Below, piece after piece: positions 40,208 through 52,081 of a stretch of 64,000 nt of DNA. Each line of letters begins with the position of its first letter. Positions within the stretch are counted from its first letter, which is position 1. Origin of the DNA: Bacillota bacterium (GTDB taxonomy: Bacteria > Bacillota > Sulfobacillia > JAUYEG01). The notes beneath the pieces were generated by a model. The model was not told the origin of the DNA and ran no database searches. It saw only the letters and a program-made list of their open reading frames with translations. The position numbers were made by a program, and so were the translations under genes. The stretch is taken from positions 62,001 to 126,000 of the forward strand of contig JAUYEG010000100.1 of the NCBI GenBank assembly GCA_030691505.1, given 5' to 3'.

Positions 40208-41857
40208 TTGATCACTGGGGAGGCGTTCTTCCCGCACCCAAAGCAGGTAACCCGGGGCCTTGCACTCCTTGTTTGCCTCTCTTTGGTCTTGGGCGGATGC
40301 GCGCCCGCCCGGCCCGCCGAGCGGGAGGGCGGCACGCTCACAATCGGCGTACCAGGGCTGCCGGCTCTCGACCCGCACCGGTCCGCCGCCCCGCATCCGC
40401 TCTTCAGGCTGGTCTACGACACGCTGGTGTCGAGACAGCCGGACCTCACCTACGGCGCGGGGCTTGCCAGCGAATGGCGGGTCTCGCCCGACGGACGCGA
40501 GGTGACCCTGCGGCTCCGGCCAGGCGTGCTGTTTCATGACGGGACACGCCTCGACGGACCGGCCGTTGCCGCCAGCATCGAGCGCGTGATGGGCGGCAGC
40601 CCTCAGGAGTTTCCCGTCCGGGCGCTACTCGGGCCGCTGCGCGAGGTGCGCGCGTCGGACGACGACGTAACTCTGGCATACGATCATCCCTTCCCGCCCG
40701 TCTGGGAGGCCCTGGCTGACATCAGGCTCGCTATCGTATCGCCGGCGTCGCTGGCTGCTCAGGATCCGGCGGCGGCGGGCTCCGATCAGGCTGGCCCCCA
40801 GTTGGCTGAGGCCGGGGTAGCGGGCCTTTCCGGCAGCGGCCCGTTCGTGCCGGTCGAGCGCGACGGGGCACAACTGCGTCTGCGGCGCTTTGCCGCGTAC
40901 CGTTGGCCGCCGGCACAGACGAGCAATCCTGGACCGGCGTATCCGGATGAGGTCAGGCTGCTTGGTTTGGGCGACCCCGCCAATGGCGGCGAGCCGGCGC
41001 AGATGTCCGGAGTTGACATGCTATGGTGGCCGGCCGGCGACGCGCCGCCAGGAGACATCCTACGGGAAACGGCCGGATGGCGGTCGTATCCTTTCGCAGG
41101 AACGCGGCTCATCTATCTATCCTGTGTGCTCCTTGACCCGGTGTTCGCCGACCCCGTGGTCCGGCAAGCCCTCCGGCTGCTCATCGATCGGGACGCGCTT
41201 CTACCGTTGCCGGCCTTCCCAGCCCGCGGCACGGTCGGCCTCTTGCCGGAATCGACCGGCGGCCGCGTGGCCGAGACCACAGGACCAAACCCGGGCGCAG
41301 CCGCGGAGATGCTCTCCGCCGCCGGTTGGACGGAGGGGCCGGACGGCGTGCGGCACAAAGGCGACGTCCGTCTCGAAGCCCGGCTGGCAACCTACACGGG
41401 TGAGCCTGGGTATGAGGCCGTGGCCGCGGCGCTTCTGACCGCGATGTCGGCGGCCGGGTTCGATTGCCGGCTGACCCCGCCCCGGCGCGACGCGAAGCCG
41501 GGCCTCGTGGCGGCGGCGCCCAACCTGTGGCTGCTCTACCACGACTGGCCTGATCCGGATGTGCTATACTACGTGTTCCACACGTCCCAGACCGGAAGCG
41601 CCAACCGCACCGGGTACAGCAACCCGACGGTGGACTGGTATCTCGACGTGGCGCGCACGGAGATGGACCCGGACGAGCGTCTCGGCTTTTACCGCCAGGC
41701 GCAGACGGCCATCATCGGCGACGGGGCCGCTTTCGGGCTGCTCGAGGCCCGTGGTGAGCTGCGGGTTTCCGGACGCGTGATAGGGCTGCGCCCGCATCCT
41801 GCAGGCGATGTATTGCTGCATGACATCTATCTTCGCGACCAGGCCGCCGCGCGCTGA
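40208..41857 (+). CDS. Peptide/oligopeptide-binding lipoprotein (SBP family 5)
   Basis: Extracellular solute-binding protein of the OppA/DppA type, lipid-anchored. From the TTG at 40208 the signal peptide is short, with a hydrophobic core (about 16-28) and lipobox LGGC at 28-31 (Cys31). The family-5 pattern is clear: GTLTIGV, LVYDTLVSR and LRPGVLFHDGTRLDG. No permease or ATPase subunits are encoded nearby, so it may serve a distant transporter. The start is uncertain; a TTG at 40169 is the alternative. A run of low similarity in the middle (about 175-260) suggests loose evolution. Ligand unknown. Confidence 0.88.
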   Translation: MITGEAFFPHPKQVTRGLALLVCLSLVLGGCAPARPAEREGGTLTIGVPGLPALDPHRSAAPHPLFRLVYDTLVSRQPDLTYGAGLASEWRVSPDGREVTLRLRPGVLFHDGTRLDGPAVAASIERVMGGSPQEFPVRALLGPLREVRASDDDVTLAYDHPFPPVWEALADIRLAIVSPASLAAQDPAAAGSDQAGPQLAEAGVAGLSGSGPFVPVERDGAQLRLRRFAAYRWPPAQTSNPGPAYPDEVRLLGLGDPANGGEPAQMSGVDMLWWPAGDAPPGDILRETAGWRSYPFAGTRLIYLSCVLLDPVFADPVVRQALRLLIDRDALLPLPAFPARGTVGLLPESTGGRVAETTGPNPGAAAEMLSAAGWTEGPDGVRHKGDVRLEARLATYTGEPGYEAVAAALLTAMSAAGFDCRLTPPRRDAKPGLVAAAPNLWLLYHDWPDPDVLYYVFHTSQTGSANRTGYSNPTVDWYLDVARTEMDPDERLGFYRQAQTAIIGDGAAFGLLEARGELRVSGRVIGLRPHPAGDVLLHDIYLRDQAAAR

Positions 41858-41878: not shown

Positions 41879-43069
41879 GTGAGAGCGTGGAAGCGGAGAA
41901 GGGAGAGGGAAAAGCTGGACCATCGCTTGAGCGAAGATGAGATCACCCTGCGCGAGCTCGCGGCGAGGGTGGCGCGGGAGAAAATCGCCCCCGTTGCGGC
42001 CGAGCTGGACGAACGCGAGGAGTTTCCCCGGCGGATACTGGAGGAAATCGGGCGGGCGGGCCTTATGGGCCTTACTGTGCCGGAGCGGTACGGCGGAATG
42101 GGACTCGGCCACCTGGCGACGTGTCTGGTAATCGAGGAGCTCAGCCGCGCCTGCGCCGGAGTAGGGGTTACCTACGCGGCCAGCATTCTGGGCTACGGGC
42201 CCATTCTGCTATTTGGCACGGAGGAGCATAAGGGGACCTACCTACCCTCGATGTGCACCGGAGAGGGACTCGGAGCCTTCGCCCTGACCGAACCGCAGGC
42301 CGGCAGCGACGCCGCCGCGATCCGCTGCACCGCCGTTCCTAGGGACGGCGGCTACGTGATATCGGGCACCAAGCAGTGGATCACCAATGGCGGCGAAGCC
42401 TCGCTGTACACGATCATCGCGCTTACGGCCCCGCAGCGCGGCCCGAGGGGCGCCAGCGCGCTCATCGTACCGGCCGGCACTCCCGGCCTGTCGTACGGCC
42501 GCAAGGAAAAGAAGCTGGGCATCAGGTGCTCCGCCACGCGGGAGCTCGTGTTTGACGAGTGTTTCGTGCCCGCCGCCAACCTGTTGGGGCGCGAAGGGCA
42601 GGGGTTTATCATCGCCATGCGTAACCTCAACCTCGGCCGTCCGGGCGTTGCGGCGCAGGCTCTGGGCATCGCGCAGGCCGCTCTGGACCACAGCGTGCGC
42701 TACAGCCTTGAGCGGGAGCAGTTCGGCCAACCCATAGGCCGGTTCCAGGCCGTCGGGCACATGTTGGCGGATATGGCCACCCACATCGAGGCCGCGCGCT
42801 CGCTTGTCTACGCGGTGGCACGGGCCATCGATTCAGGGGACCAGGACTTTGAACGCGAGGCCGCGATGGCAAAAACCTTTGCCTCAGACACGGCAATGGC
42901 GGCGGCGACGGATGCGGTGCAGATCTTTGGCGGGTACGGGTACATGCGGGACTACCCGGTCGAGAAACTCTTCCGTGACGCCAAAATCACCCAGATCTAC
43001 GAGGGGACCAACCAGGTTCAGCGCAACATCATAGCGGCTTCGCTGCTCAAAGAAGCAGCGCGGCGCTAG
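41879..43069 (+). CDS. Acyl-CoA dehydrogenase
   Basis: Flavoprotein oxidising a short or medium acyl-CoA to the 2-enoyl-CoA and passing electrons to the ETF encoded next. Signatures: FALTEPQAGSDAAAI, KQWITNGGEA, IFGGYGYMRDYPVEKLFRDA and the catalytic Glu in YEGTNQVQRN. 396 residues; the GTG at 41879 has GGGAGG six bases upstream and adds a basic leader (RAWKRRRERE) before the fold. The bcd-etfB-etfA order resembles butyryl-CoA dehydrogenase clusters, but no crotonase or thiolase is nearby, so the substrate cannot be named. Confidence 0.94.
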   Translation: MRAWKRRREREKLDHRLSEDEITLRELAARVAREKIAPVAAELDEREEFPRRILEEIGRAGLMGLTVPERYGGMGLGHLATCLVIEELSRACAGVGVTYAASILGYGPILLFGTEEHKGTYLPSMCTGEGLGAFALTEPQAGSDAAAIRCTAVPRDGGYVISGTKQWITNGGEASLYTIIALTAPQRGPRGASALIVPAGTPGLSYGRKEKKLGIRCSATRELVFDECFVPAANLLGREGQGFIIAMRNLNLGRPGVAAQALGIAQAALDHSVRYSLEREQFGQPIGRFQAVGHMLADMATHIEAARSLVYAVARAIDSGDQDFEREAAMAKTFASDTAMAAATDAVQIFGGYGYMRDYPVEKLFRDAKITQIYEGTNQVQRNIIAASLLKEAARR

Positions 43070-43092
43070 GTCCCGCGCAAGGAGGACACGGA

Positions 43093-43887
43093 ATGAGGAT
43101 TGTGGTGCTCGTAAAACAGGTTCCGGACGCGCCCGAGCCACGTCTTGCGGGCGGCCGTCCGGCCCTGGACGGCGTTCCCTGGGTCACCAACCCATTTGAC
43201 CTCCACGGCTTGGAGGAGGCGCTCCGAATAAAGGAGCAGCTCGGCGATATCGTGGAAACCATGGCCCTGACCGCCGGCGGCGCCCGTGCGGCGGAGACCC
43301 TGCGCGAAGCGCTCGCGGTCGGCATCGACCGTGTGCTGCGCATCGACGCACCTGAGCTTCAGGGGCTGGAGACGGGCCTGGTCACGGTGGCCCGCGTGTT
43401 GGCCGCGGCCATAAGGCGCCTGGGAGGGGCAGACCTGCTGTTTTGCGGGCAAAAGAGCCTCGACCAGCAGAGCGGCATGTTGCCGCCGGCGCTGGCGGAG
43501 GCAATCGGGGCCTGCTTTATCCCCGACGCCGCGAAAATCACCGTTGACCCATCCCTCGGCCGCGTTGCGGTCGAGCGGCTGCTTCCCACCGGACGGGCCC
43601 AGCTTCGAGCCTGCCTGCCGGCCGTCATCACCCTGGCCAAGACCATAAACGAGCCGCGCCTGGCCTCGTTGCGCGGGCTGATGAAGGCAAAGCGCGCCGA
43701 AATCCCGTGCGTCACGCCCGACGAGCTAGGTGTGCCTCTTCCCGGCGCATCCGGCCCGGGCGACGGGTACGCGCTTTTGGGTTTCCGCTCACCGCCGTCG
43801 CGCCCCGCCGCGATGAAGCTTGAGGGCACCCCTGCCGAGCAGGCCCGGGCGCTCGTCCACCAACTTCGCCAGGGGAGGTTGCTATGA
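43093..43887 (+). CDS. etfB: Electron transfer flavoprotein beta subunit
   Basis: Beta subunit of ETF, binding AMP or a second flavin. N-terminus MRIVVLVKQVPDAPEP and NPFDLHGLEEALRIKE match. The nucleotide loop reads CGQKSLDQQSGMLPPALAE rather than the common GRQAIDGDTAQVGP, a change in the region that distinguishes electron-bifurcating from ordinary ETFs. AAGGAGGA lies before the ATG. It overlaps etfA by four bases. 264 residues. Confidence 0.94.
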   Translation: MRIVVLVKQVPDAPEPRLAGGRPALDGVPWVTNPFDLHGLEEALRIKEQLGDIVETMALTAGGARAAETLREALAVGIDRVLRIDAPELQGLETGLVTVARVLAAAIRRLGGADLLFCGQKSLDQQSGMLPPALAEAIGACFIPDAAKITVDPSLGRVAVERLLPTGRAQLRACLPAVITLAKTINEPRLASLRGLMKAKRAEIPCVTPDELGVPLPGASGPGDGYALLGFRSPPSRPAAMKLEGTPAEQARALVHQLRQGRLL

Positions 43888-44948
43888 TGGTCTGGGCGGC
43901 AATCCAGTTTGGTTCGCCGGCCGCGGACCGCGACGGCGCCGAGGCTCTCCTTGCGGCACAACAACTGGGCTTGACCGGCGGACGCGACGTGGGTTGCCTT
44001 GCGGTCACGCCGGTTCGGGATGGAGCAGTGGGCTCCGCTCAGTCGGAGTTTCGCGGGCTTCTGGCCGCTTGCGGCATCCGCCGCGGGGCGCTCCTGGCGC
44101 TCGACGGACGACGGGGATTGGATGCGGACGTTATCGTCGACTGCCTTGAGCCCCAGATGACCGGGCGCGATGCGGCGGCGTGGGTTTTCCCGGGAAGCGC
44201 CGAATGGCGCACGGCGGCTGCCCGGCTCGCAGTTCGTCTGGGATGGCCGGTCGTCGGCGAGGTCATCGAGTTTGCGGCGCCGGATCAGCTGGCGGCCATG
44301 GGCGAGTCCGGCGCGGGGCCTGCATGCGGCGTGGTCAGGCCGGCGTTTGGTGGCAGCCTGCTCGCCATCGAGGCGCTGGCCATGCCCTGCCTCGTTGTCA
44401 TCCGGCCGCGGGCGTTCGCGGGCGGCCCGCCCGAGGGGACGGCGATCGACCCGGAACAAGTCGATCTCCAGCCTGTTTCCGGCGTATCGGGCCAGGCCAC
44501 GGGTGCAGCCAGCCGTGTGACCGTGGTTTCGGCCGAGGAGCGGCAGTCCGACCTCCCGGCGCTCGGGGATGCGGAGGTCATCGTCTCAGGGGGGCGCGGT
44601 CTCGGCGGGCCTGAGGGCTTCGAACTGCTGACCAGGCTGGCCCGTGCCCTCGGCGGGTGCGTCGGGGCCTCGCGCGCCGCGGTTGACGCCGGGTGGTTTG
44701 CGTACGAGAGCCAGGTCGGCCAGTCCGGCCGCACCGTGTCGCCCCGCCTGTATCTCGCGGTCGGGATCTCGGGCGCGGCTCAGCACCTGGCGGGGATGAG
44801 AGGGTCACGTGTCGTCGTCGCGATCAACCGCAACCCGGAGGCCCCGATTTTCGGCGCATGCAACTACGGGCTTGAGGGAGACTGGCGCGAGATCGTTACG
44901 GCGCTGCTGGACGAGGTTGGCAGCGCGGGCCCCGGCGGGCGAAACTAA
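43884..44948 (+). CDS. etfA: Electron transfer flavoprotein alpha subunit
   Basis: Alpha subunit of ETF with the C-terminal FAD domain: ISGAAQHLAGMRGSRV and NRNPEAPIFGACNYGLEG. In most homologues the last motif reads ADYG, so a usually conserved Asp is Asn here. The N-terminal domain (about 1-200) is divergent. 354 residues, about 30 longer than typical. It starts within the etfB stop (ATGA). Confidence 0.92.
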   Translation: MMVWAAIQFGSPAADRDGAEALLAAQQLGLTGGRDVGCLAVTPVRDGAVGSAQSEFRGLLAACGIRRGALLALDGRRGLDADVIVDCLEPQMTGRDAAAWVFPGSAEWRTAAARLAVRLGWPVVGEVIEFAAPDQLAAMGESGAGPACGVVRPAFGGSLLAIEALAMPCLVVIRPRAFAGGPPEGTAIDPEQVDLQPVSGVSGQATGAASRVTVVSAEERQSDLPALGDAEVIVSGGRGLGGPEGFELLTRLARALGGCVGASRAAVDAGWFAYESQVGQSGRTVSPRLYLAVGISGAAQHLAGMRGSRVVVAINRNPEAPIFGACNYGLEGDWREIVTALLDEVGSAGPGGRN

Positions 44949-45060: not shown

Positions 45061-46899
45061 ATGAGCAGCCTCGGGGCCATCCTGGCCACCGACGTAGGCA
45101 GCACGACCACCAAGGCTATCCTTATCGAGCGGCGAGGCGACGAATACCGCCTGGCAGGCCGCGGCGAGGCGCCCACCACCGTCGAAGCTCCGCATGAAGA
45201 CGTGATGGTGGGCGTTTTTGATTCGCTGCGCCGCCTTGAGGAGGCCACCGGCCGCCGGGTCGTTGATGGCCAGCGCATCCTGGTGCCGGCAAACGGTCAG
45301 GACGGCGTGGACCTTTTCGTCGCCACGAGCAGCGCCGGCGGCGGGCTGCAGATGACCGTCGCGGGCCTGATCAAATCGCTCACCGCGGAGTCGGCCCAGC
45401 GCGCGGCGCTGGGCGCTGGAGCTATCGTGATGGACGTCATCTCGATCGACGACGCCAGGCTGGTCATCGAGCGCATCCGGCGCCTCAAGGAGCTCCGCCC
45501 CGACATGATCCTCCTCTCCGGGGGCACCGATGAGGGTTCAATAAGCCACGTGGCCGCAATAGCGGAGTATATCGCGGCGGCAAACCCGCGGCCCCGCCTC
45601 GGCGGCGGGTACAAGGTCCCGGTGATCTACGCCGGCAACGTCAAGGCTCGCGAGTATGTCGAGGATGTTCTCGGCGAGCTCACGGACGTTCGGGTGATAG
45701 ACAACATCCGCCCAAAGCTTGAGACGGAGAACCTCGAGCCGGCCCGCCGGGCCATCCACGAGCTGTTTCTGGAGCACGTCATGGCGATGGCCCCGGGCTA
45801 TCCCAAGTTGCTTGAGCTGACCGACAGCCGCATAGAGCCCACACCGATGGCCGTCGGCAAGATCCTGCAGTTGCTGGCCGAGCGCCAGCAGCTCAACGTC
45901 GTTGCCGTGGATATCGGCGGTGCGACGACTGACGTCTTCTCGATCATGGAGGGCAAATTCAACCGCACCGTCAATGCCAACCTGGGCATGAGCTACAGCC
46001 TCGCCAATGTTTTTGTTGAGGCGGGCGTGGCCAACATCATCCGCTGGCTCCCCTTCGATCTCTCTGAGAGGGAACTGCGCAACTGGACGGCAAACAAGAT
46101 GATCAGGCCCACGACGCTCCCTCAGGAGCTGGACGAGCTGATTCTGGAGCACGCCCTCGCCCGGGAGGCCGTGCGGCTCTCTTTTGAACACCATCGCAGC
46201 CTGGCCGTGACCCTGCGCGGCGTGCAGCAAAAGCGGACCTTTGACGAGGTCTTCACCCAGCGAGGGACCGGCCAGCCGCTCGTTGACCTCTCCAAAATGG
46301 ACGTGATCGTGGGCAGCGGCGGGGTGCTGTCAAACGCGCCGCGCCGTGCCCAGGCCATGTTGATGATGATCGATGCGATTCAGCCCGAATCGGTCTCCCG
46401 GCTCTTCGTGGACAGCATCTTCATGATGCCGCACCTCGGCGTGCTCTCCGACTCCGAGCCGGATATCGCGCTTCAGGTTTTCCTCAAAGACTGCCTCGTG
46501 CCGCTCGGCACCTGCATCGCGCTCAAGGCGCCCGCCAAGCTGGATGAGCTGCTGGGCGTGGTCACCCTGTCGTTGCCCGACGGACGGACCCAGCAGGTGG
46601 AAGTGCGCGGGGGCAAGCTGCTCCGGCTGCCGCTGGGGACGGCGGAACGGGCCGGAGTGGTCATCGAGCCTAAGCGTCACGTCGACGCCGGCGCCGGGCC
46701 CGGCCGCCGGGTGAGCGGCGAGGTCTCCGGCGGCGAGATAGGCCTGGTGATCGACGGCCGGGGGCGGCCTATCTGGATTCCGGAACAGCCCGCGGCGCGG
46801 ATCAGGATGCTGCGGCAGTGGTACGAGCAGCTAGGGCTCTACGACGCCGACATGCTCGGCAGGTACGAGGTGGCTCATCAAGGGGGTGCCGGCAGATGA
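45061..46899 (+). CDS. MutL-like (glutamate mutase L family) ASKHA ATPase
   Basis: 612-residue member of the MutL family encoded beside glutamate mutase in some Clostridia (unrelated to the mismatch-repair MutL). ASKHA phosphate loops: ATDVGSTTTKAI (9-20) and VVAVDIGGATTDVF (about 281-294); LLSGGTDEGS lies near 153-162 and VGSGGVLSNAPRRA near 418-431. The family is thought to reactivate B12 mutases or to handle a related cofactor step, but this is not established. No mutase subunit or B12-binding domain lies nearby. It overlaps the next gene by four bases. GGGAGGA precedes the ATG. Orthology beyond the family is uncertain. Confidence 0.88.
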   Translation: MSSLGAILATDVGSTTTKAILIERRGDEYRLAGRGEAPTTVEAPHEDVMVGVFDSLRRLEEATGRRVVDGQRILVPANGQDGVDLFVATSSAGGGLQMTVAGLIKSLTAESAQRAALGAGAIVMDVISIDDARLVIERIRRLKELRPDMILLSGGTDEGSISHVAAIAEYIAAANPRPRLGGGYKVPVIYAGNVKAREYVEDVLGELTDVRVIDNIRPKLETENLEPARRAIHELFLEHVMAMAPGYPKLLELTDSRIEPTPMAVGKILQLLAERQQLNVVAVDIGGATTDVFSIMEGKFNRTVNANLGMSYSLANVFVEAGVANIIRWLPFDLSERELRNWTANKMIRPTTLPQELDELILEHALAREAVRLSFEHHRSLAVTLRGVQQKRTFDEVFTQRGTGQPLVDLSKMDVIVGSGGVLSNAPRRAQAMLMMIDAIQPESVSRLFVDSIFMMPHLGVLSDSEPDIALQVFLKDCLVPLGTCIALKAPAKLDELLGVVTLSLPDGRTQQVEVRGGKLLRLPLGTAERAGVVIEPKRHVDAGAGPGRRVSGEVSGGEIGLVIDGRGRPIWIPEQPAARIRMLRQWYEQLGLYDADMLGRYEVAHQGGAGR

Positions 46900-48248
46900 T
46901 CCAACCAGTCGAGCTCAAGATCGCCCGGCGCACACTGCTCAGGAGGGAACGGATGCTTCCGATCCCCGGCGAATTGCTGGTTTCTAAGGGGCAGACGGTC
47001 ACACCGGATACGGTGGTCGCCAAGACGGAGGTCCTCCCCGGTGACCCGTATGTCATTGACCTGAAGAGCGAGTTTCACCAGACGTTGACTGCCAAGCAGG
47101 TATCCGAGGCGATGCTCAAGAGGGTGGGGGACCGGGTGGCGGCCGGAGAGCCGATCGCCGAGATCGCCCGCGGCATGCTGAGGGAGAGACACCAGGTAAG
47201 GTCGCCGGTGGACGGGATTGTCGAGTTTATCTCCCGCGCCTACGGCCGGGTCCTGATCCGCGAAGACCCCAAGTCAGCCATGCCCGTCGCGAATGTGGCT
47301 GTCGCCAAACAGCTCGACATCTGGCCGTCCAGCCTGCGCATGTACATGCGTTACCGCGAGGGGGACGAGGTAAAGCAGGGAGCGGTGCTCGCGGATAGCC
47401 CATCTGTCAGCGGCATGGACTACTCGTACTCGCCCATCAGCGGCATTATCGAGAAGATCGACACCCGTACCGGCTATGTCACGATCGTCCGTCCGGCCCG
47501 CCCGACGCTCGTCGACGCCTACCTGAGCGGCCGCATTGAGTCCACCACGGCGGAGTTGGGGGCCGTCGTGACCTGCACCGCCGCCCACATACAGGGCGTG
47601 TTCGGGGTCGGGTTTGAGAACTACGGGTACCTGAAGATGGTTGCGTCCGATCCCGGCAAAATCGTGGACGCGGACGACCTCACGGGCGAGCTCAGGGACA
47701 AGGTGTTTGTCGCCGGCCAGAAAGTGACCCTCGAGGCGGTCCGCAAGGCAGCCGCCGGGGGAGCACGGGGGTTCATCACCGGCGGCATGGACCACCTGGA
47801 TCTGGTCGGTTTCGTGGGCTCGGAGATCGGCGTGGGCATCACCGGCCAGGAGGATGTACCGCTCACCATCGTGCTCACCGAGGGATTCGGCGGCATGCGC
47901 ATGGCCGACTGGACTTTCGACCTCCTGCGCGAACATGAGGGCAAGCTTGTTTCCTTCAACGGTTCGACTCAGGTCCGCGCAGGGGTGATCCGGCCGGAGG
48001 TCGTGATCCCGCTGGCCGGTGACGACGGCCCCACTTCCCCCGAGGAGATAGCCCCGGGCGGCCAGCTCGCCTCCGGGTCGCGAGTCCGCCTGCTGCGCAA
48101 GCCCTATTTCGGTGCGTGGGGAACGGTCATCGAGCTGCCGCTTGAGGCGCAGCGCATAGAAACCGAAGCTACCTTGCGCGTTGCCCGTGTGAAGCTTGAG
48201 GACGGCGGAGAGGTTACGGTCCCCGAGGCCAACATCGAGGTATTCTGA
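46896..48248 (+). CDS. Barrel-sandwich/KOW-like protein paired with the MutL-like ATPase
   Basis: 450-residue protein of unknown function. Two stretches look like halves of a barrel-sandwich (biotinyl/lipoyl-like) fold: HQVRSPVDGIVEFISRAYGR (about 99-118) and YSPISGIIEKIDTRTGYVTI (178-197). No Lys sits at the usual modified position, so a carrier role is not supported. A Gly-rich central part holds FITGGMDHLDLVGFVG (293-308). The C-terminus (about 395-450: SRVRLLRKPYFGAWGTV ... EVTVPEANIEVF) resembles a KOW/SH3-like strand set. No signal peptide or membrane segment. It starts within the MutL-like stop (ATGA) and is followed by a strong terminator, so the two form the end of one operon. Confidence 0.8.
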   Translation: MIQPVELKIARRTLLRRERMLPIPGELLVSKGQTVTPDTVVAKTEVLPGDPYVIDLKSEFHQTLTAKQVSEAMLKRVGDRVAAGEPIAEIARGMLRERHQVRSPVDGIVEFISRAYGRVLIREDPKSAMPVANVAVAKQLDIWPSSLRMYMRYREGDEVKQGAVLADSPSVSGMDYSYSPISGIIEKIDTRTGYVTIVRPARPTLVDAYLSGRIESTTAELGAVVTCTAAHIQGVFGVGFENYGYLKMVASDPGKIVDADDLTGELRDKVFVAGQKVTLEAVRKAAAGGARGFITGGMDHLDLVGFVGSEIGVGITGQEDVPLTIVLTEGFGGMRMADWTFDLLREHEGKLVSFNGSTQVRAGVIRPEVVIPLAGDDGPTSPEEIAPGGQLASGSRVRLLRKPYFGAWGTVIELPLEAQRIETEATLRVARVKLEDGGEVTVPEANIEVF

Positions 48249-48275
48249 CGGCGGCTTGGCTTCGATGACCATCGG

Positions 48276-48317
48276 GCGGTCCGGGCGGTGAGCACCGCCC
48301 GGACCGCTTTCCTTTGG
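48276..48317 (+). terminator. Strong Rho-independent terminator
   Basis: Fourteen-base perfect stem beginning GCGGTCCGGGCGGT with a GAGC loop, followed by TTTCCTTT. It closes the operon that ends with the KOW-like gene. Confidence 0.88.
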
Positions 48318-48452: not shown

Positions 48453-50282
48453 TTGTCTGTGCTGCTCCGGTTGATGCGATACACCCTGCGCCACTGGCGG
48501 TGGACCCTTCTGGGCCTTCTCGCCATGCTTGGCGCGCTCTACACGCGGCTTATCGTACCCCGTCTGATCCAGCGAGCCATTGACCAGGGCATTCTTGGCC
48601 GCGACCCCGGCGTACTGCTGAATGTCGCGGGGCTGATCCTGGCCATGGCCCTCCTGGGCGGCGTGATCCGCTTCGCCGAAAGGTACTCGATGGAGTACAT
48701 GTGCCAGCGCGTGATCTACGACTTGCGCAACGACCTGTACAACCACCTTCAGACCCTTTCTTTCAGCTACTACGATGAGGCGCACACGGGGCAGCTGATG
48801 TCCCGCGTAACTGGCGACGTCGAGACTCTGCGCCGCTTCCTTTCGCGCGGGCTGCTCGGCCTCACGGAGAACTTCTTCATGCTCGTGGCTGTGGTCGTGA
48901 TCCTGGTGCGGTATCACGTCGGTCTCGCCCTGACCTCGCTCGCGATGCTGCCGTTCCTGACCTACGCCGTCGTCCAATTCGGCCGGCGCGTCAGGCCGGC
49001 CTACTGGGCCATCCAGGCGCAGGCGGCGTCCATGACCGCGGTGCTTCAGGAGAACATAACCGGCGTGCGCGTGGTCCGCGCGTTCGCCCGCGAGGACAGC
49101 GAGGAGGCCAAGTTCGAGGTCGAGAACCGCGAATATCACCGCCGCCAGATCACAGCCGTCAAGCTGCACGCCTACTACATGCAATTCATGACCTTCCTGA
49201 GCAACCTCGGCGTGGCCGTGGTCCTGTTCTACGGCGGACGCCTGGTCATCGAGGGCGTGCTGACTATCGGGATCATCGTTGCGTTCACGAGCTACCTCGG
49301 CCAGTTGATGATGCCCCTCCGCATGCTGGGGATGATCGTCGGCCTGGCTCAGCGCGCGGTAGCCTCGGGCCAGCGTGTCTTCGAGATCCTCGACACCATG
49401 CCCGAGATCCAGGACGAGCCGGGGGCCACCGAACTGCCGCCCGTCCAGGGGCACATCGAGTTTCGCAACGTGAGCTTTGGCTACGGCAACGGCCTGACGC
49501 CCGAGGCGCTTGTGCTCAAGGACATCAATCTCGAGGTGCCTGCGGGGAAAACCGTCGCCCTGCTCGGTGCGACGGGCTCGGGGAAGTCCTCGATCATCAA
49601 CCTTGTGCCGCGGTTCTACGACCCCACGCAGGGGCAGGTGCTCGTTGACGGGCACGACATCCGTCACGTGACCCTGCGCAGCCTGCGCGGGCAGGTCGGA
49701 ATGGTGCTCCAGGAGACGTTCCTGTTCTCGGCCTCGTTGCGCGAGAACATCGCCTATGGGCGTCAGGCGGCGACCCAGGCCGAGATCGAGGCCGCGGCCA
49801 AGGCCGCGCACATCCACGATTTCATCGTCTCATTGCCTGAAGGATACGCGAGCCTCATCGGGGAGCGCGGCGTCGGGCTGTCGGGCGGCCAGAAACAGCG
49901 CCTGGCGATCGCCCGGGCCCTTCTGATGGACCCGCGGATCCTTATCCTGGACGATTCGACCTCGAGCGTCGACATCGAGACGGAGTACCTGATCCAGCAG
50001 GCCCTGGCCAACGTGATGCGGGACCGGACCACGATAGTCATCGCCCAGCGACTTTCCACGATCAAGAACGCGGACGAGATCATCGTGCTTGACGCGGGGC
50101 GGATCGTCCAGCGTGGCCGGCACGATGAACTGCTTGCCGGGGGCGGCATCTACTGCGAGATCTACGACCTCCAGCTGCGGCGGCAGGAGCCCGCGCACGG
50201 CGGCGCGGCCGGAGCGCCGGGCGGCGAAGCGTCTGCCGCGGCTTCCCGACGTCCGGGCACCGTACGGGGAGGTGGCTTCTGA
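48453..50282 (+). CDS. ABC exporter subunit with a degenerate ATPase site
   Basis: Half-transporter of the multidrug/lipid exporter type: six membrane segments (about 1-310), then an ATPase domain with Walker A GATGSGKSS (about 371-379) and signature LSGGQ (about 476-480). The catalytic Glu after Walker B is Asp (D501 in LILDDSTS) and the switch His is Gln (Q532 in VIAQRLST), so this subunit hydrolyses ATP poorly, if at all. Its LSGGQ is intact and serves the partner's site. TTG start after a G run. It overlaps the partner by one base (TGATG). Substrate unknown. Confidence 0.95.
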   Translation: MSVLLRLMRYTLRHWRWTLLGLLAMLGALYTRLIVPRLIQRAIDQGILGRDPGVLLNVAGLILAMALLGGVIRFAERYSMEYMCQRVIYDLRNDLYNHLQTLSFSYYDEAHTGQLMSRVTGDVETLRRFLSRGLLGLTENFFMLVAVVVILVRYHVGLALTSLAMLPFLTYAVVQFGRRVRPAYWAIQAQAASMTAVLQENITGVRVVRAFAREDSEEAKFEVENREYHRRQITAVKLHAYYMQFMTFLSNLGVAVVLFYGGRLVIEGVLTIGIIVAFTSYLGQLMMPLRMLGMIVGLAQRAVASGQRVFEILDTMPEIQDEPGATELPPVQGHIEFRNVSFGYGNGLTPEALVLKDINLEVPAGKTVALLGATGSGKSSIINLVPRFYDPTQGQVLVDGHDIRHVTLRSLRGQVGMVLQETFLFSASLRENIAYGRQAATQAEIEAAAKAAHIHDFIVSLPEGYASLIGERGVGLSGGQKQRLAIARALLMDPRILILDDSTSSVDIETEYLIQQALANVMRDRTTIVIAQRLSTIKNADEIIVLDAGRIVQRGRHDELLAGGGIYCEIYDLQLRRQEPAHGGAAGAPGGEASAAASRRPGTVRGGGF

Positions 50283-52081
50283 TGGGGCACTGGCACTTCC
50301 ACGGCGCCGATCTCGCCGATGAGGACATGAAGGCCATCGACCCGCAGGTCATGCGGCGACTGTTGGCCTACGTGCTGCCCTACAAGGTCCAGTTCCTGGC
50401 CGGGGTGGCCCTGATGCTTCTGGCCACCGGGGCCGGCCTGATGGGCCCGTGGCTGATCCGCACCGCGGTTGACGGCTACATCCTCGTCGGCGACATGGGC
50501 GGACTGACGTTGATCGCCGCCGCGTACGCTGCTTTGCACCTCGCAAGCTGGTTTGCCAACTACTGGCGCGAACTGCTCATCGCTCAGGTGGGGCAAAGCG
50601 TCATCTTTGACCTGCGGCGTGACCTCTTCGCACGTCTGCAACAGCTGACTTTCAGCTACTTCGACGGGGTTCCGGCCGGGGTTCTCATCTCGCGCGTGGT
50701 CAACGATGTCGGAGCCGTGCAGGAACTGGTCTCCGGTGGGATTCTGAGCGTCGTGGCCGACGTGTTCACGCTCACCGGGATCATCGCTCTGATGCTTTCG
50801 ATGCATTGGCGACTGGCGCTCATCTCCTTCGCGACCATGCCTCTGCTCTACATCGTGGCCACCGGGTTCCGGAGCCGTGCCGGTCGCGCCTACCGCAAGG
50901 TGCGCACGCAGATCGCGAACATCACCGCCAACCTGCAGGAGAGCATAAGCGGCGTTCGCGTGACCCAGAGCTTCGCCCGCGAGCAAGCCAACCTGGCCAG
51001 ATTTGACCAGACCAACCAGGAAAACATGCAAGCCAACATGGAAGCCGTTTCGCTGTTCTCCCTCTTCGTGCCGGTGGTCGAGGTTATCAGCGCCGTCGGC
51101 ACCTGTCTCGTCCTGTGGTTCGGTGGCAGGTTTTACGTCCAGGGGGGCGTCCAGACCGGCGTCATCGTGGCGTTTATGCTCTACGTGAACCGGTTTTTCG
51201 GCCCGATCCGCGACCTTACGATGGTGTACAACGAACTCCAGGCGGCAAACGCGGCTTCGGAGAAGATCTTCCAGATCATCGACACGCAGCCCGAGGTGTA
51301 CGACCGGTCGGGCGCGGTCGATATCCCGCGGATCCGCGGCGACGTCGAGTTCCGCAACGTCAACTTCGCCTACCAGCGCGACCAGCCGGTTCTGCGGGAC
51401 ATCCAACTGCACATCCCTGCCGGCAAGCGGGTCGCGGTGGTCGGCCCGACCGGGGCGGGCAAGAGCACCATGGCCAGCCTGCTGGCCCGCTTCTATGAGC
51501 CCACGGGAGGCGAAGTCCTGGTTGACGGCCACGATACCCGCTACGTGACCATGCGGTCGCTGCGGCGCAACCTGGGCATCGTCCTGCAGGACACCTTCCT
51601 GTTCTCGGGCACGGTCAAGGACAACATCCGCTACGGCCGGCCGGAGGCCACCGATGAGGAGGTGGTCGCGGCGGCGCGGGCGGTGATGGCTCACGATTTC
51701 ATCATGCGGTTGCCGCAGGGGTACGAGACCGAGGTGCGCGAACGGGGCAGCAAGCTGTCGGTGGGCCAGCGCCAGCTGATCGCCTTCGCCCGGGCGCTGC
51801 TCGCGGACCCGCGGATCCTCATCCTCGATGAGGCCACCTCCAGCGTCGACGCATACACGGAGGTTCTCATCCAGAGGGCTCTTGAGAGCCTGCTGCAGGG
51901 GAGGACCGCGGTGGTCATCGCCCACCGCCTGTCGACGATCCGCAGCGCGGACCAGATCATCATCCTCGACGGCGGCCGCATCGTGGACCGCGGCAGGCAC
52001 GAGGAGTTGCTGGCACGCGCGGGCCTGTACCAGCACCTGTACGAGATGCAGTTCAAGTTGCAGGAAGCGCCGGCGCCCTGA
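50282..52081 (+). CDS. ABC exporter subunit with the competent ATPase site
   Basis: Partner of the preceding half-transporter. Six membrane segments (about 28-330), then Walker A GPTGAGKST, Walker B LILDEATS with catalytic E517, and switch H548 in VIAHRLST. Its own signature is LSVGQ instead of LSGGQ, exactly the change expected where it faces the degenerate site of the partner. The pair therefore fits heterodimeric exporters such as TM287/288 and BmrCD. 599 residues. The substrate could be a drug, lipid or peptide; the context does not say which. Confidence 0.95.
   Translation: MGHWHFHGADLADEDMKAIDPQVMRRLLAYVLPYKVQFLAGVALMLLATGAGLMGPWLIRTAVDGYILVGDMGGLTLIAAAYAALHLASWFANYWRELLIAQVGQSVIFDLRRDLFARLQQLTFSYFDGVPAGVLISRVVNDVGAVQELVSGGILSVVADVFTLTGIIALMLSMHWRLALISFATMPLLYIVATGFRSRAGRAYRKVRTQIANITANLQESISGVRVTQSFAREQANLARFDQTNQENMQANMEAVSLFSLFVPVVEVISAVGTCLVLWFGGRFYVQGGVQTGVIVAFMLYVNRFFGPIRDLTMVYNELQAANAASEKIFQIIDTQPEVYDRSGAVDIPRIRGDVEFRNVNFAYQRDQPVLRDIQLHIPAGKRVAVVGPTGAGKSTMASLLARFYEPTGGEVLVDGHDTRYVTMRSLRRNLGIVLQDTFLFSGTVKDNIRYGRPEATDEEVVAAARAVMAHDFIMRLPQGYETEVRERGSKLSVGQRQLIAFARALLADPRILILDEATSSVDAYTEVLIQRALESLLQGRTAVVIAHRLSTIRSADQIIILDGGRIVDRGRHEELLARAGLYQHLYEMQFKLQEAPAP

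Follow-up and report, generated by a model that had tools for sequence, protein, structure and literature searches.

The MutL–BAR locus

The window, a 64,000-nucleotide stretch of a Bacillota genome of 2.88 Mb, carries on its forward strand a gene for a long MutL-type ASKHA protein and, overlapping its 3′ end, a gene for a partner protein, here termed BAR. The features of the locus, with positions counted from the first nucleotide of the window, are listed below.

40208–41857, + strand: SBP_bac_5 peptide-type solute-binding protein (PF00496, E 8e-37), retained beside the pair in the syntenic stretch L031
45048–45054, + strand: GGGAGGA, Shine–Dalgarno-like, 5′ of MutL (sequence reading)
45061–46899, + strand: MutL, long MutL-type ASKHA protein, 612 amino acids (PF13941, orthologue alignment, hydropathy)
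45091–45114, + strand: ASKHA phosphate-1 motif DVGSTTTK, MutL residues 11–18 (homologue alignment)
45910–45933, + strand: ASKHA phosphate-2 motif DIGGATTD, MutL residues 284–291 (homologue alignment)
46312–46323, + strand: adenosine-motif-like GSGG, MutL residues 418–421 (homologue alignment)
46498–46899, + strand: MutL C-terminal extension, not in GlmL/Or-4 (alignment; the same-genome GlmL stops about here)
46880–46886, + strand: AAGGGGG, Shine–Dalgarno-like, within the 3′ end of MutL and preceding BAR (sequence reading)
46896–48248, + strand: BAR partner, 450 amino acids, soluble (ATG at 46896; AlphaFold2 model)
46920–47516, + strand: barrel-sandwich-like halves of BAR, approximately residues 9–122 and 123–207 (weak profile matches; model secondary structure)
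47517–48011, + strand: central alpha/beta domain of BAR (alignment; model; weak RraA/PA-domain-like Foldseek matches)
48063–48248, + strand: KOW barrel of BAR (Foldseek versus SPT5 KOW)
48276–48307, + strand: 14-bp GC-rich hairpin, then TTTCCTTT, probable terminator (fold z-score −5.0)

The two frames overlap by the sequence ATGA (46896–46899), and Pfam PF13941 covers MutL residues 7–478 (E 8e-126), confirming the initial annotation of a MutL-type ASKHA protein coupled in this way to a 450-residue partner. The strong terminator proposed to close the unit could be upheld in part; the hairpin is present, but because it is missing from the output of the terminator scan, it is regarded as a likely terminator and not as an established one. 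Directly upstream of the pair and on the same strand lie an acyl-CoA dehydrogenase gene and both ETF genes (41879–44948), and no mutase or B12 domain is found in the neighborhood, both as originally described. Downstream of the pair, positions 48453–52081 hold two ABC exporter-like genes, which are missing at the same site in L031.

Window MutL is a soluble protein with no transmembrane segment of note by hydropathy. Alignment of 38 MutL homologues showed the phosphate-1 motif, D(C/V)GSTT(T/S)K, in every sequence, as was the adenosine-like motif (GSGG or GTGG); the phosphate-2 motif reads D(I/V)GGATTD in 32 of the 38 and GLGGATTN in the other 6. Identity to the window protein exceeds 48% in bacteria and archaea alike. 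The protein resembles the accessory proteins of glutamate mutase (GlmL/MutL) and ornithine aminomutase (Or-4) in being full-length PF13941 with ASKHA motifs, but differs from them in carrying approximately 130 extra C-terminal residues and in scoring far below the NCBIfam equivalog cut-offs for GlmL (244 versus 475 bits) and Or-4 (239 versus 600 bits), as well as below that for glmL_fam (172 versus 204). In the tree, the long MutLs split from GlmL/Or-4 as a clade of their own with strong support, but on long branches. A PDB sequence search with the MutL profile gave no useful match.

In the AlphaFold2 model of BAR, built from 68 homologues (mean pLDDT 90), the N-terminal part forms two beta-rich halves, an alpha/beta domain occupies the center, and the chain ends in a barrel. 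The halves had been described as barrel-sandwich-like; the two beta-rich halves of the model agree with this, but the Pfam matches are weak (RnfC_N 1.5e-5, NqrA_N 1.8e-5, and Biotin_lipoyl 5.4e-5). No lysine could be seen by eye in the lipoyl-like hairpin of window BAR, in line with the earlier remark that the partner lacks the modifiable residue of a biotin or lipoyl carrier. Two motifs are conserved across the alignment of the central domain, TEGFG and (S/N)G(A/S)TQ(I/V)RAGVIRPE. The KOW-like character of the C terminus was borne out by Foldseek, which aligned the barrel with SPT5 KOW (probability 1.00, target TM-score 0.80, rmsd 1.4). No Pfam NusG match was obtained and the remainder of BAR was unrelated in the fold alignment, giving no sign of a NusG/NGN domain; a PDB sequence search with the BAR profile returned no useful match.

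MutL and BAR form an obligate pair

Homologues of BAR were found in at least 573 stretches of one-per-species genomes. Among the matches listed, the hosts include Bacillota, Armatimonadota, Planctomycetota, Zixibacteria, Poribacteria, Marinimicrobia, WOR-3, and others, together with several archaeal lineages. Within a survey of 300 genomes of the phylum, PF13941 occurs in 116, mostly as short GlmL-type proteins, and it is present in 24 of the 24 genomes that encode BAR; outside the phylum, a PF13941 MutL was found in 44 of 45 BAR genomes, mostly in frames of 600–670 amino acids. The source genome itself holds seven MutL–BAR pairs, five of them intact, on contigs C74 (the window), C14 (three pairs), C54, C1, and C44. 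The C44 pair is a single MutL–BAR ORF of 1143 amino acids, and four further fusions (L177–L180, ORFs of 861–969 amino acids) were found in Fermentibacterota, Zixibacteria, and another bacterium. Fusion in several lineages is good evidence that MutL and BAR act together, and the survey supports an obligate pair. We looked for a partner confined to the surroundings of B12 mutases and for rare co-occurrence of the two genes, and neither was found.

No relatives of BAR were seen in viral contigs or plasmids, and a mobile element reading was dropped on this ground. An anti-phage defense role was likewise dropped, with none of eight proteins matching a PADLOC model.

A four-gene membrane module accompanies the pair

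Where the system lies in a single operon, the order is a small protein of approximately 118 amino acids, MutL, BAR, DUF6754, TM208, TM278, and TM200 (TM200/247). The full order is seen in L049, L061, L087, and L094, and split versions occur in Bacillota; a PH- or FHA-like membrane protein often belongs to the cluster as well. The source genome carries nine DUF6754–TM208–TM278–TM200 modules (L118–L126) in constant order and apart from the MutL–BAR pairs, and comparable expansions occur in other genomes. It thus holds the long MutL–BAR pair together with the four-gene module, the combination that defines the DUF6754-linked system. In the phylum survey (n = 300), BAR occurs in 24 genomes, DUF6754 in 25, and both in 23 (Fisher p 5e-31, a value that overstates the association because the surveyed genomes are related). 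In other phyla, DUF6754 is present in 44 of 45 BAR genomes. The constant companions of the pair are thus these four membrane proteins, which in this genome are encoded elsewhere.

By hydropathy and charge, DUF6754 consists of a transmembrane segment, a cytosolic domain, and a second transmembrane segment; TM278 has an extracytoplasmic domain between two transmembrane segments; and TM208 and TM200 are multi-spanning. DUF6754 (PF20539), the family around which the module is built, is listed by Pfam with no assigned function, and TM208, TM278, and TM200 matched no Pfam or NCBIfam family. The structural model of DUF6754 (pLDDT 94, pTM 0.88) gave no PDB match at E ≤ 0.001 in Foldseek, and PDB sequence searches with the DUF6754 and TM278 profiles gave no useful match. 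A common origin of DUF6754 and TM278, or of TM208 and TM200, received no support from hhalign, and neither proposal was kept. Among the four membrane proteins TM278 is the least conserved, with 28–39% identity between paralogues versus 34–52% for DUF6754, the pattern to be expected if this subunit has to deal with different substrates; the divergence is compatible with transport and does not prove it. DUF6754, PF20539, and PF13941 are unmentioned in the open-access papers searched.

Several variants of the module were noted. TM278 and TM200 are fused in a 571-amino acid ORF of a Zixibacteria genome (L185:1539–3254). Preceding the C14 pairs, an FHA domain is fused to a two-TM PH-like protein (L023:13228–14103), the PH-like part of which stands alone in other genomes. 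Outside Bacillota, DUF6754 proteins have a signal peptide and, by eye, an FN3-looking domain N-terminal to the first transmembrane segment (L064, L087, L094, and L105); because FN3 was not matched by Pfam at 1e-5, this domain is not claimed. A DUF483-like protein with a Cys-Cys motif (L037:14157–15101) recurs after the Bacillota cluster and is also found beside archaeal DUF6754 modules and that of L194.

Relation to B12-dependent mutases and to the upstream genes

Membership of PF13941 invites the reading that the pair assists, in trans, a B12-dependent mutase encoded elsewhere. Among the 45 BAR genomes of other phyla, glutamate mutase GlmE was over the cut-off in none and the lysine/ornithine aminomutase family was found in two; the pair is therefore independent of these enzymes, a point on which the co-occurrence check proposed with the initial annotation is clear. 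In the source genome, the gene for an eighth PF13941 protein (C13) comes straight after that for an ornithine aminomutase OraE; among NCBIfam families this protein scores best with Or-4, at 596.5 bits (cut-off 600). This stretch (L028:178–4394) encodes an OraE-like ornithine aminomutase with fused OAM_alpha, then the Or-4/GlmL-type protein and what is probably a carbamate kinase. The ornithine mutase of this genome thus has its own GlmL directly downstream, leaving one normal B12-mutase companion and seven PF13941 proteins of the long, BAR-paired kind. The statement that MutL is known only with glutamate mutase was inexact, Or-4 belonging to the ornithine aminomutase pathway and having a representative here. 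Because of the mutase counts, the GlmL that the ornithine mutase already has, and the separate clade of the long MutLs, the companion role was rejected and is rated as hardly credible; the obligate BAR partner and the lack of a nearby mutase are further differences from GlmL and Or-4. The long MutLs thus make up a large branch of the family that is detached from B12 enzymes and whose annotation as accessory proteins of glutamate mutase is probably wrong.

The acyl-CoA dehydrogenase and ETF genes offer another candidate function for the pair, being immediately upstream on the same strand; an acyl-CoA dehydrogenase-like gene was also seen by eye beside one archaeal DUF6754 module (L191). Against this, L031 retains the YraN-to-CodY neighborhood, including the solute-binding protein, MutL, and BAR, but lacks these three genes. 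The upstream genes of the initial annotation are therefore present but not conserved; the partnership was rejected on this synteny and is considered very improbable.

Metabolic context

Relatives of peptidases and amidohydrolases make up 15 of 120 module neighbors versus 1 of 120 control genes, counted over the source genome and five others; per module, such relatives adjoin 8 of 28, and among the 20 control stretches only 1 (p 0.04), an enrichment that is only suggestive because the query enzymes were partly picked from the neighbors themselves. An M55 D-aminopeptidase is encoded near MutL–BAR in an archaeon and near a MutL–BAR fusion in Fermentibacterota. SBP_bac_5 adjoins the pair both in the window and in L031, a glycine cleavage operon adjoins the cluster in L049 and L065 (two phyla) and one module of the source genome, and oligopeptide ABC genes follow the cluster in L094. 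Several phyla have no peptidase or amino-acid neighbors. Taken as context, these peptidases, peptide-binding proteins, and enzymes of amino-acid metabolism hint that peptides or derivatives of amino acids may be what is taken up.

Proposed function and alternatives

Our best reading, to which we assign a probability of about 0.6, is that a widespread and undescribed membrane system, built on DUF6754, TM208, TM278, and TM200, has MutL as its cytosolic ATPase and BAR as its cytosolic adaptor. MutL would bind and hydrolyze ATP, BAR would link MutL to DUF6754 on the cytosolic side of the membrane, and the cycle of ATP binding and hydrolysis would drive or reset the membrane complex. In favor of this model are the obligate pairing with its natural fusions, the conserved order of the genes and their near-obligate co-occurrence, the ASKHA motifs kept by the intact pairs, the topology deduced from hydropathy and charge, and the independence from B12 mutases. 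The copy numbers count against it, seven pairs and nine modules being unequal and lying apart in the genome, as do the lack of a PDB match for the DUF6754 model, the smaller metabolic enrichment per module, and the phyla in which such neighbors are missing. The earlier proposal of an ATP-driven machine of its own remains the best reading of the obligate pair, but MutL and BAR alone do not make up the whole of it. Import of peptides or amino-acid derivatives by the complex, with a separate substrate for every membrane module and TM278 as the variable outside-facing part, is a tentative proposal that we would put at clearly less than even odds. More doubtful still is the wider possibility of a novel class of transport in bacteria and archaea, in which a MutL-family ASKHA ATPase acting through a barrel-sandwich/KOW adaptor would power a four-subunit complex with interchangeable substrate modules.

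A role as reactivase or remodeling chaperone is ascribed to GlmL, EutA, and DdrA, and the main rival to an ATPase that drives the membrane complex is that MutL–BAR plays such a role on the DUF6754 complex, exchanging a spent ligand or refolding an inactivated subunit and not powering turnover. Relatives of MutL have been described as reactivation chaperones (PMC4682846). An ATPase and its substrate may differ in gene number, and the counts of seven pairs and nine modules agree with this; neither a cofactor prone to inactivation nor a known enzyme fold is seen in the membrane proteins, however, and we consider the reactivase role unlikely, if the most serious of the competing explanations. A further alternative is an envelope or scaffold machine that moves no solute. 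PilM, GspL, and FtsA are cytosolic ASKHA proteins that work with membrane proteins, and MutL could recruit or assemble membrane proteins in the same manner, as the ASKHA fold, the cytosolic pair, the bitopic membrane partners, and the FHA/PH partner would allow. MutL belongs to a different ASKHA family, however; pilin, secretin, and division genes do not recur near the cluster, and nine modules beside catabolic genes would be an unusual expansion, making this explanation improbable.

The Rnf/Nqr complexes also combine several membrane subunits with a cytosolic subunit, and the weak RnfC_N/NqrA_N match in BAR is a further likeness, but no cofactor motif was recognized, TM208 and TM200 are not recognizably related to each other, and none of 33 module proteins matched a Pfam family of Rnf-Nqr membrane subunits. 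None of the known kinds of system tested fits this one, a judgment made against open-access papers and with function read from context. A gene set so conserved and widespread, in up to nine copies per genome, must serve some basic purpose in many anaerobes that are uncultured, and it raises the testable question of which ASKHA ATPases act on membrane complexes, and on what.

Degenerate pairs in ABC operons

In two of the seven pairs of the source genome (L022:2878–9399 and L027:3860–10358), the ASKHA motifs have been lost, and the operons of both also encode FtsX-like permeases and an ABC ATPase of LolD-like type. The same degenerate MutL–BAR/ABC arrangement is found immediately before an intact pair in L032:1–6517 and L033:3–7104. 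Intact pairs, including that of the window, differ in having no ABC component of the FtsX/LolD type. The degenerate operons are possibly a hybrid system, in which energy may now be supplied by the ABC ATPase instead.
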